Shown piece after piece: positions 17,798-62,684 of a DNA stretch of 64,000 bases. This DNA comes from Pimelobacter simplex (GTDB lineage Bacteria > Actinomycetota > Actinomycetes > Propionibacteriales > Nocardioidaceae), in NCBI RefSeq assembly GCF_900114845.1, contig NZ_FOUK01000001.1, positions 1,032,479 to 1,096,478 on the forward strand, in the 5' to 3' direction. Within the stretch, counting starts at the first letter, position 1, and each line of letters begins with the position of its first letter. The notes below the pieces were generated by a model. That model was given only the letters and a program-made list of their open reading frames with translations, ran no database searches and had not been told where the DNA came from. The position numbers and the translations under genes were made by a program.

Positions 17798-17922
17798 CGA
17801 AGTGCGCGGGTTGCGGGCACGAAGTACGCCGCTTGCGGGTCCGAAGTACGCCGGTGCGGCGGCATCCGCCGCACCTCGACCCCGCAACCTCCCCACTTCG
17901 CGCCCGCAACCCGGGCACTTCG
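17798..17922. repeat. Inverted array of 22-nt palindromic repeat units
   Basis: Three direct units on the plus strand (17798-17819, 17820-17841, 17842-17863) share CGAAGT followed by a GC-rich core and TGCGGG. Two further units face the other way (17901-17922 and about 17879-17900). A perfect 10-bp stem with loop CAT (17853-17875) lies at the centre, so the whole can fold as one large hairpin. It fills the 138-nt gap between convergent genes and may terminate both. Two more units lie inside the GH3 gene at 62235. Confidence 0.8.
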
Positions 17923-52951: not shown

Positions 52952-53003
52952 CCCGGTACCTCGTACGGCCGGGACGACTGCCCCGGTACCTGACACGGCC
53001 GGG
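52952..53003 (+). repeat. Tandem direct repeat before rplQ
   Basis: Two 22-nt copies of CCCGGTACCT-N3-ACGGCCGGG lie at 52952-52973 and 52982-53003, with a 30-nt period. Each copy can also fold, because CCCGG pairs with CCGGG. The second copy ends 17 nt before the rplQ ATG. A regulatory or RNA-processing role is possible; I do not know this element. Confidence 0.7.
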
Positions 53004-53020
53004 GAAGAAACGAGAGAGAC

Positions 53021-60415: not shown

Positions 60416-61257
60416 TGGCGCGGCGCACCCCGACCGCCGTACGGCTCGGTGCGGACGTGGTGGGGCTCGTCGTCCTGCTGGTCTGCATCTTCCCGGTCTA
60501 CTGGATGGTCAGCCGCTCCTTCCTGCCGCGCAACCGGATCAAGGGGGAGGACCCCGTCCTCGTCCCGTGGCACGGCACGCTCGACAACTACCGCAAGGTG
60601 CTCACCGACGGCGGGTTCAGCGACGCGCTCATGACGAGCCTCAGCGTGACGCTGCTGACCGTGGTGGTGGCGATCCTGTTCGCGTTCCTCGCGGCGGTGG
60701 CGGTGAGCCGGTTCCGGTTCCGGGGACGGCGCTCGTTCATCCTGGCGCTGCTGGTGATCCAGATGATCCCGGCCGAGGCGCTGTTCATCAGCCAGTACAA
60801 GATGCTCGACGGCATGGGGCTGCTCAACTCGGTGCTCGGCCTCACCATCGTTTACGTCGCCGGCGTGCTGCCGTTCACCGTGTGGACCCTGCGCGGGTTC
60901 GTCGACGGCGTCCCGCGCGAGCTCGAGGAGGCCGCGATGATGGACGGCTGCTCGCGCACCCAGGCGTTCTTCCGGGTGACCCTGCCACTGCTCGCGCCGG
61001 GGCTGGTGGCGACGGGCGTCTTCGGGTTCATCCAGGCCTGGAACGAGTTCACGCTCGCGGTGGTCGTGATGACCGACCCGGCCAAGGAGACGCTCCCGGT
61101 GTGGCTGGTCGCGTTCACCGACTCGCGCAGCCGGGGGGTCGACTGGGGGGCGATCATGGCGTCGTCCACGCTGATCACGATCCCGGTGGTCATCTTCTTC
61201 CTGATCGTGCAGCGCCGGATGGTCTCCGGGCTCACCGCGGGCGCGGTGAAGGGATGA
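60415..61257 (+). CDS. Carbohydrate ABC transporter permease (MalG-like)
   Basis: The 280-residue permease has six helices. The EAA loop is ELEEAAMMDGCSRTQAFFRV, typical of MalG-type subunits. Its stop overlaps the GH3 start (ATGA). With the upstream permease, lipoprotein and divergent ATPase it completes one CUT1 importer. Confidence 0.92.
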   Translation: MARRTPTAVRLGADVVGLVVLLVCIFPVYWMVSRSFLPRNRIKGEDPVLVPWHGTLDNYRKVLTDGGFSDALMTSLSVTLLTVVVAILFAFLAAVAVSRFRFRGRRSFILALLVIQMIPAEALFISQYKMLDGMGLLNSVLGLTIVYVAGVLPFTVWTLRGFVDGVPRELEEAAMMDGCSRTQAFFRVTLPLLAPGLVATGVFGFIQAWNEFTLAVVVMTDPAKETLPVWLVAFTDSRSRGVDWGAIMASSTLITIPVVIFFLIVQRRMVSGLTAGAVKG

Positions 61258-62684
61258 GCGCGACCCCGGACGTCGCCGCGCTGGCGCTGCGGGTGCAGCT
61301 CGCGTCCTTCGCCGGGCCGTCGCTGCCACCGGACTGGGCGGCGCTGCTCGCCGACGGCCTCGGCGGGATCTGCCTCTTCGGCTCCAACCTGACCGGCACC
61401 GCCGAGGACGTCGCGGTGCTGGTGGCCGCCGTCCGGGCGGCCGGCCCGCGGGCGCTCGTCGCGCTCGACGAGGAGGGCGGCGACGTCACCCGCCTGCACA
61501 CCCGCGAGGCCAGCCCGGTGCCGGGCGCCGCGGTGCTCGGCGCGGTCGACGACCTCGACCTGACCCGGGCCGTCGGCGCCGCGGTCGGTGCCGAGCTCGC
61601 GTCGCTGGGGATCGACCTCGACCTCGGCCCGGTCGCCGACGTCAACAGCAACCCGGACAACCCCGTCATCGGCACCCGCAGCTTCGGTGCCGACCCCGCC
61701 CGGGTGGGACGCCACGTCGCCGCCTGGGTCGAGGGGCTGCAGGCGGAGGGCGTCGCGGCGTGCGTGAAGCACTTCCCCGGGCACGGCGACACCGCTCAGG
61801 ACAGCCACCTGACGCTGCCCGTCCTGGCAGCGCCGGCGGACGTCGTCCGGGCGCGCGAGCTGCGGCCCTTCGCTGCCGCCGTCGCGGGGGGAGCGGCCGC
61901 CGTGATGACCTCGCACCTGCTGGTCCCGGCCCTCGACCCGGACCACCCCGCCACCCTGTCCGCGCCGGTGCTGGGCCTGCTGCGCGACGAGCTCGGCTTC
62001 GACGGCGCGATCGTCAGCGACGCGCTCGACATGGCGGGCGCCTCCGCGTCCCGCGGCATCCCGGAGGCCGCCGTCCTCGCGCTCGCCGCCGGCTGCGACC
62101 TGCTCTGCATCGGCCCCGACAAGGACGCCGGCCTCGTCCGCGAGGTCCAGGCCGCGATCGTCACCGCCGTCGACGCCGGCCGGCTGCCCCTCGCCCGGCT
62201 CACCGACGCCGCCACCCGGATCGCCGACCTCCCGCGAAGTGGGGGGCTTGCGGGCACGAAGTCGCCCGGTTGCGGGGTCGAGGTGGGCCGGTTGGCCGCC
62301 GCGGCCCGCGCGGCGTGCCTGGTCGAAGGGCCGCTGCCCGACCTGACGGGGGCCGGCGCGCGCGTCGTCAGCGTCGCGACCGAGGCGAACATCGCGGTCG
62401 GTCCCGGACGGTGGGGGCTGGTCGCGGATCTCGAGGTGGCCGCCGGCGAGCCGCTGCCGGACGGCGCGCTCGTCGTCCAGGTGCGCGACGCGCACCGGCG
62501 CCCCGAGGTGGCGGCCGCGCTGGCGGCCCATCCCGGGCCACTGGTCGTCGTCGAGTGGGGCTGGCCCGGCCCCCGCACCGGGTGGGCGCACGCGCCCCAC
62601 GCGCGCATCTGCACGCAGGGCAACGGACAGCCGTCGATCGCGGCGGTGACGGAGATTCTTCGGGAAGCGGGGCTCGACAGGTGA
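61254..62684 (+). CDS. NagZ-type glycoside hydrolase family 3 protein with repeat insertion
   Basis: The 476-residue protein has a GH3 barrel in residues 1-320. KHFPGHGDTAQDSHLTLP contains the NagZ loop with the Asp-His general acid pair, and IVSDALDM carries the nucleophile aspartate. No signal peptide is present, so it acts in the cytoplasm on imported disaccharides or muropeptides (beta-N-acetylglucosaminidase). Residues about 328-343 (RSGGLAGTKSPGCGVE) are encoded by two 22-nt repeat units, in the linker to a C-terminal domain of about 130 residues. The stop overlaps the ROK kinase. Confidence 0.88.
   Translation: MSATPDVAALALRVQLASFAGPSLPPDWAALLADGLGGICLFGSNLTGTAEDVAVLVAAVRAAGPRALVALDEEGGDVTRLHTREASPVPGAAVLGAVDDLDLTRAVGAAVGAELASLGIDLDLGPVADVNSNPDNPVIGTRSFGADPARVGRHVAAWVEGLQAEGVAACVKHFPGHGDTAQDSHLTLPVLAAPADVVRARELRPFAAAVAGGAAAVMTSHLLVPALDPDHPATLSAPVLGLLRDELGFDGAIVSDALDMAGASASRGIPEAAVLALAAGCDLLCIGPDKDAGLVREVQAAIVTAVDAGRLPLARLTDAATRIADLPRSGGLAGTKSPGCGVEVGRLAAAARAACLVEGPLPDLTGAGARVVSVATEANIAVGPGRWGLVADLEVAAGEPLPDGALVVQVRDAHRRPEVAAALAAHPGPLVVVEWGWPGPRTGWAHAPHARICTQGNGQPSIAAVTEILREAGLDR
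62235..62279 (+). repeat. 22-nt repeat units inside the GH3 coding sequence
   Basis: CGAAGT-GGGGGGC-TTGCGGGCA (62235-62256) and a second unit from 62257 (CGAAGTCGCCCGGTTGCGGG) match the array at 17798-17922. The frame stays open across them, so the element was tolerated as a linker insertion. Confidence 0.8.

Follow-up and report, generated by a model that had tools for sequence, protein, structure and literature searches.

The stretch of DNA analysed here (64,000 nucleotides of Pimelobacter simplex, hereafter the window) encodes a GH3 (NagZ-like) glycosidase of 476 amino acids (protein P0001). The gene was identified by its open frame, by a match to PF00933 above the gathering score (E 1.3e-71; 242 bits versus a cut-off of 27) and by its relatives of solved structure, the top ones including GH3 N-acetylglucosaminidases and hexosaminidases. 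The protein contains the loop KHFPGHGDTAQDSH, which corresponds to KHFPGHGxxxxDSH, presumably the NagZ-like GH3 motif. The start of the gene overlaps the stop codon of an upstream frame, read as permease-like, and GC content is 78 % across the final 2 kb of the window. The following features were identified:

61254..62684, + strand: GH3 (NagZ-like) glycosidase gene, 476 aa
61344..62228, + strand: GH3 N-terminal (barrel) domain, residues 31-325 (Pfam stretch)
62235..62256, + strand: 22-bp repeat unit 1 (dialect A), CGAAGTGGGGGGCTTGCGGGCA, residues 328 to 335
62257..62278, + strand: 22-bp repeat unit 2, CGAAGTCGCCCGGTTGCGGGGT, residues 335 to 342
62279..62300, + strand: degenerate third unit, CGAGGTGGGCCGGTTG, in the 22-bp register (by reading)
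17798..17841, + strand: two forward units of the same repeat family, in a convergent intergenic region
17842..17863, + strand: degenerate third forward unit, CGAAGTACGCCGGTGCGG, in register (by reading)
17879..17922, - strand: two inverted units closing the 17798-17922 intergenic element

The GH3 reading frame runs uninterrupted from 61254 to 62684 and contains the two 22-bp units described by the first-pass annotation. They are arranged head to tail and encode the peptide RSGGLAGTKSPGCGV (residues 328-342). That description stood as regards these two units; it omitted the degenerate third unit, which was also missed by the unit scan. The array lies directly behind the barrel domain, the Pfam Glyco_hydro_3 match ending at residue 325, and the stretches matched by solved GH3 relatives stop at residues 284 to 333 in the first 25 rows. 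The segment between the domains is variable, with lengths of 81 to 135 nt in the 56 orthologues compared, so the linker tolerates an array, in agreement with the earlier suggestion of a tolerated insertion at a domain boundary. When the window was scanned with the 28-mer, allowing up to three mismatches, 2 matches were found versus 0.00 expected. Across the window, Rfam yielded a single match that reached the gathering score, an L17-Actino-Proteobacteria ribosomal protein leader (52952-53007, + strand).

The repeat family in the P. simplex genome

The unit can be written as CGAAGTN7TTGCGGGNN; by reading, it lacks a GTAG head and shows no obvious internal palindrome. The loose form of the unit, GAAGTN7TTGCGGG (19-mer), was found 124 times in the genome and the strict 28-mer (dialect A) 58 times, with no match for the reversed control in either case. 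These counts bear out the earlier view of a dispersed, mostly non-coding repeat lying in frame within the gene. The strict 28-mer was absent from the 97 other genomes among the 98 sampled from the genus.

Overall, 45 array clusters were distinguished in the 42 dialect-A loci read. Forward units faced inverted units over a short gap in 25 of them, as at 17798-17922; 13 were one-sided, including the GH3 array; six were paired across gaps of at least about 450 bp, giving three pairs (L001, L085, L086); and one (L063) showed the reverse arrangement. According to a codon-usage test, three out of the 45 clusters lie inside coding sequence, namely those of the GH3 gene, L062, and L064. The L062 cluster is a single unit in a gene read as oxidoreductase-like, through which the orthologue of genome G056 aligns without a gap, so the unit replaced an equal length of coding sequence. 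The L064 cluster consists of one weak unit and may be due to chance. A mosaic array, in which units of different dialects follow one another, was also observed in L062 near position 2000.

Where forward units face inverted ones, the gap separating the two facing units fell into classes of 3-6, 13-16, 25-29, and 35-37 bp. Its best period was 10.6 bp (R 0.71, n = 25), a value reached by 0 out of 2000 uniform random sets, for which the grid of periods was half as fine as for the data. Inner gaps in G056 gave R 0.73 at 10.75 bp (n = 11), and those in G042 gave R 0.68, with only n = 7. Those in G051 (n = 20) gave R 0.77, yet R was still 0.72 at 12 bp; this genome thus discriminates phasing poorly. 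Phasing of this kind suggests that proteins occupy one face of the DNA. The gap classes are compatible with two basic spacings, about 4-5 and 15-16 bp, that differ by one helical turn and that both also occur with one unit lost (plus 22 bp).

Inner units start with CGAGGT and outer units with CGAAGT in arrays such as L028, L061, L065, L068, L072, L077, and L078; this order is reversed in L087. Such an order may indicate a renewal of arrays starting at their outer end. An RNA hairpin or terminator was rejected as the sole driver of the family: by reading, forward and inverted units of one element did not look complementary at their variable positions.

The GH3 site in related species

Among 147 sampled genomes of the genus, 114 contained some match to the GH3 protein. 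We retained 56 full-length orthologues, including that of P. simplex; this set includes 27 hits initially without a locus (down to E 3.5e-135) and excludes L252 of G047, which matched up to residue 329 only. The lag-22 score of the linker, out of a maximum of 22, was 17 in P. simplex, 17 in G014, 22 in G056, and 18 in G042. It was 15 in G083 and at most 13 in the other 51 orthologues.

The four arrays of P. simplex, G014, G056, and G042 start at the same codon, have the same orientation and lie in linkers that measure 105 nt from anchor to anchor. Three of these four bearers (P. simplex, G056, and G042) carry the array in the dialect of their own species; for G042, this is also the dialect found around its own nuclease-like gene, L147. 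The G014 array is degenerate and unlike the units read beside the nuclease genes of that genome (L143, L152). Residues 328-343 had been put forward as an insertion unique to one lineage, a view contradicted by these four species, which share the array site and the linker length with different sequences. Nor does the array add length to the linker: the array-poor linker of G083 also measures 105 nt, and those of G123 and G139 are 15 nt shorter. The term "domesticated" was not supported either, since nothing shows a use for the peptide, which differs in each species. No repeat-free orthologue was seen to encode the same peptide: the closest of the 56 other rows agreed at 5 out of 15 aligned residues.

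In a tree calculated without the linker, the seven closest species formed one clade (support 0.76), ordered ((G014,((G139,G123),G083)),own),(G042,G056), where own is P. simplex; its two halves were supported at 0.99 and 1.00. Array bearers are therefore found on both sides of the first split, which argues that an old GH3 array was probably rewritten in place. The most economical reading is a single old array that was lost or has decayed in G083, G123, and G139 and has been rewritten in the other species. Selection on the length of the linker could also account for the constant length of the site.

Two further orthologues, from G064 and G105 (L042, L043), have linkers of 135 and 126 nt, respectively, which contain a different dispersed repeat, GGTCGAGTAG...CGTATCGAGAC. 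Among eight genomes searched, this repeat was present in 34 copies in G064 and 39 in G105 (one inside the GH3 gene in each), 44 in G025, 13 in G042, 1 in G014, and 0 in three others. With its GTAG motif and palindromic appearance, it resembles GTAG-tagged REPs. The presence of an unrelated repeat indicates that the linker is also simply tolerant.

Dialects and shared array sites

We searched 12 chosen genomes for the generic pattern CGAAGT-N16-CGAAGT. It was found 79 times in P. simplex (two dialects), 54 in G051, 28 in G056, 10 in G042, and 4 in G025, with no hit in the remaining seven of the 12 genomes; controls gave 0 hits except for one reverse hit in G056. Among the 28 hits in G056, one of which lies in the GH3 gene, the unit body CGAAGTGTGAGGGTTTCTCCG is found repeatedly. 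The G042 unit, CACGAAN9GTGGCAC, was present in 39 copies in that genome, two of them in the GH3 gene, and in 0-2 copies in the 11 other genomes, with one control hit (in G139).

Some array loci are shared between species. Four out of the 14 array loci of G056 match one of 51 array loci of P. simplex. In G051, 2 out of the 22 array loci match P. simplex loci, and a third shares only the nuclease-like gene; the weak pair L091/L102 was left out of this count. The G051 site orthologous to 17798..17841 also carries an array, which is written in the dialect of G051.

Two intergenic sites of P. simplex (L029 and L076) were compared across species, and neither showed a clean empty site, because the place was filled by other sequences. 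At L029, a different sequence separates the same two genes in six relatives. The dialect-A element of P. simplex (L029, 1486-1621) is replaced at the orthologous sites (L267-L276) by inverted repeats of another kind, identified by reading at least in G056, G042, G123, and G083 (for example, AATCCCCGG stems). This gap appears as if refilled by whichever repeat is active. At L076, six relatives were tried, and both anchors were found in G056, G042, and G123, not in G083, G014, and G139; no dialect-A unit was detected in the first 400 of 453 bases in G056, the first 400 of 538 in G042, or all 98 bases in G123.

A nuclease-like gene framed by inverted units

Six long-gap stretches were read, two of which (L086 of P. 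simplex and L100 of G056) contain a nuclease-like gene; the other four hold other genes, named by reading. Because of these four, we rejected the hypothesis that long-gap pairs are plain cargo transposons. By reading, no DDE transposase was noticed in the six stretches. A homologue of the nuclease-like gene is also present in an array locus of G051 (L127). The L086 product, P0002, has 352 amino acids. Its N-terminal part matches the AbiEi profiles of PADLOC (E 9.7e-9), and its C-terminal part gave hits to MTES_1575 (27.9 versus 38.2 bits) and DUF559 (18.2 versus 20.6 bits), both below the curated cut-off. Residues E226, E269-Y-D271-G, and H276 were invariant in 17 homologues; E226, E269, D271, and H276 are putative active-site residues. 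No transposase profile was found for P0002 among the Pfam, NCBIfam, and PADLOC hits, NCBIfam gave no hit near a cut-off for this gene, and a search of the P. simplex genome with Pfam DUF559 gave 0 matches at E 0.001. The only named relative comes from one Nocardioidaceae MAG (41 % identity). Homologues were present in all 12 chosen genomes and in 122 out of 296 sampled genomes of the phylum (E 0.001).

The flanks of the gene were compared at 28 of 30 genus loci (37 matches listed), leaving out L162 (truncated, with overlapping windows) and L159 (the second half of the gene of L154). Loci from other genera were taken at one per genome from 29 of the 121 other matching genomes, one of which gave no value, and 27 of 29 GH3 loci served as controls, two being too short. 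Inverted flanking 22-mers matching at 19 or more out of 22 positions were found at 23 of the 28 genus loci, 14 of the 28 loci from other genera, and none of the 27 controls, five of which reached 18/22. Among the five genus loci without such a match, L151 and L154 have tandem arrays. Tandem repeats (at least 18/22; periods 18-40) were observed on at least one side of the gene at 21 genus loci, 7 loci from other genera, and 0 control loci, and on both sides at 14, 2, and 0 loci, respectively.

The flanking units vary from locus to locus. At loci with orthologous flanks (L135/L136; L142/L143/L151/L154), the gene is kept and the units are different. Across 18 loci, no correlation was detected between unit similarity and protein similarity (Mantel r 0.06; 1453 out of 5000 permutations as high), which means that overall protein identity does not predict the unit sequence.

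Several individual loci presented particular features. A second gene of the family in P. simplex (L148; G000:C2:933060-934019) is framed by a second dialect, GCGAAGGAGCACGGTCCGGCGG. The downstream flank of the G042 gene L137 matches the upstream flank of L148 at 87 % over 1257 nt and in opposite orientation; this resembles the outcome of an inversion or relocation of the gene between its inverted arrays. The G139 gene (L154/L159; G139:C1:2842004-2842905) is split over two frames with its flanking arrays still in place, and L149 and L150 each contain an in-frame TGA.

Discussion

The weak profile hits of P0002 suggest a Vsr/DUF559-like fold, and hence a likeness to Vsr-like and EDxHD homing endonucleases. 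The break-induced copying proposed below, by analogy, would be another common point. Homing genes copy themselves into empty sites; here, in contrast, several genes stay put and the repeats change. The ends of Tn7/Mu-like transposons carry transposase sites of about 22 bp, and these ends, like MITEs, resemble the present arrays in their tandem units of about 22 bp, placed in inverted ends with short internal spacers. They differ in that, in the present case, four out of the six long-gap stretches hold other genes, and two the nuclease-like gene.

The nearest system in behaviour is REPIN/RAYT. REPINs and RAYTs are described in PMC8049555, and REPs within genes and GTAG tags in PMC3733652. Both the repeats studied here and REPINs are short, dispersed, mostly non-coding, and often arranged as inverted pairs. 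In both systems, a gene framed by species-specific repeats is stable at orthologous loci in several cases, which in our data are limited to L135/L136 and L142/L143/L151/L154. In contrast to the tyrosine transposase of REPIN/RAYT, the protein found here is AbiEi-like with a DUF559/REase-like part; the unit has no evident hairpin or GTAG head, and units form helically phased tandem arrays. As neither the defining enzyme nor an evident hairpin unit was found, we do not consider this system a member of REPIN/RAYT.

The N-terminal region of P0002 also relates it to the AbiE type IV toxin-antitoxin system, whose operators are inverted repeats of nearly equal size and spacing. According to PMC7319586, AbiEi binds inverted repeats of 23 bp separated by 3 bp, and Rv2827c binds such repeats with a separation of 13 bp; these spacings are close to the 3-6 and 13-16 bp gap classes. 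Unlike AbiE, the protein described here has a C-terminal nuclease-like domain, and its repeats occur genome-wide and on both sides of the gene.

We compared several explanations for the GH3 array. The one we favour, and hold to be fairly probable, is a two-part system in which an old GH3 array would be rewritten in place through nuclease-driven homogenising, the array itself being a passenger. The first part would be a gene for a fusion of an AbiEi-like and a PD-(D/E)XK/DUF559-like domain, framed by inverted units; the second part would be the gene-less copies of the array across the genome, mostly non-coding. The GH3 stretch would be a one-sided array of this 22-bp dispersed repeat. It would have been present in the linker since the ancestor of the seven-species clade and would have been rewritten there, without a change in length, into the dialect now used by each of at least three species; it would not be a domesticated part of the protein. 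Judging from the sequences, the AbiEi-like protein most likely attaches to the units and causes them to spread. That the AbiEi region would bind the units as operator-like sites is suggested by homology, by the size of the unit and by helical phasing; the conserved acidic residues suggest that the nuclease-like domain may nick or cut at them. Repair copied from other arrays would then spread and homogenise the units, as the in-place turnover of dialects suggests. Several results weigh against this explanation, namely the null Mantel test, the unlikeness of the G014 array to the units read beside nuclease genes of that genome, the five genus loci and half of the loci from other genera without an inverted flanking match at 19/22, the poorer phasing in G051 and the small number of gaps in G042, and the nuclease profile hits below the curated cut-offs.

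A separate landing in each species, at a tolerant hot spot in the GH3 linker, appears unlikely to us. Such independent insertions would agree with the quite different dispersed repeat held by the G064 and G105 linkers, and with the restriction of the strict dialect-A pattern to one species among the 98 genomes searched. However, the four array bearers share the same codon, orientation, and 105-nt linker, the G064 and G105 linkers being longer (135 and 126 nt), and a single old array is a more economical explanation than four independent hits at one base. A resemblance arising by chance from GC-rich coding sequence could be imagined in view of the base composition of the last 2 kb of the window (GC 78 %); this explanation is refuted by the counts and has a negligible probability, with 0.00 matches expected in the window, 0 control matches in the P. 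simplex genome, and species-specific dialects at one GH3 site.

Selection alone, with no copying by a nuclease, might also keep drifting units matched to a changing regulatory protein. The 23-bp inverted repeats bound by AbiEi-like autoregulators (PMC7319586) speak for such operators, as do the helical phasing, which fits operators, and the orthologous placement of some arrays (4 out of the 14 G056 loci match one of 51 of P. simplex). Nevertheless, about 100 dispersed units would each need to track every change in specificity, arrays also occur inside coding sequence (the GH3 gene and one unit in L062), and 17 homologues show no variation at the acidic residues of the nuclease-like domain. We judge this explanation improbable.

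More tentatively, and with slightly less than even confidence, the two-part system may represent an undescribed class of repeat system in Actinobacteria, combining an AbiEi-nuclease fusion, its recognition of a private and fast-changing unit of about 22 bp, copying and homogenising of arrays across the genome by cut and repair, and rewriting in place, even of coding sequence, upon a change of dialect. No description of a repeat and AbiEi-nuclease system was found in the literature searched, which covered titles and the openings of abstracts, with few subscription papers. If the protein drives the spread of the units, it would be a second, unrelated solution to the job of REPIN/RAYT, based on a nuclease with a restriction-enzyme-like fold. 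If this holds true, each gene would be accompanied by its own recognition sequence, making a catalogue of protein/site pairs readable from genomes, and the GH3 gene would be a case of repeated rewriting of a protein linker at unchanged length.
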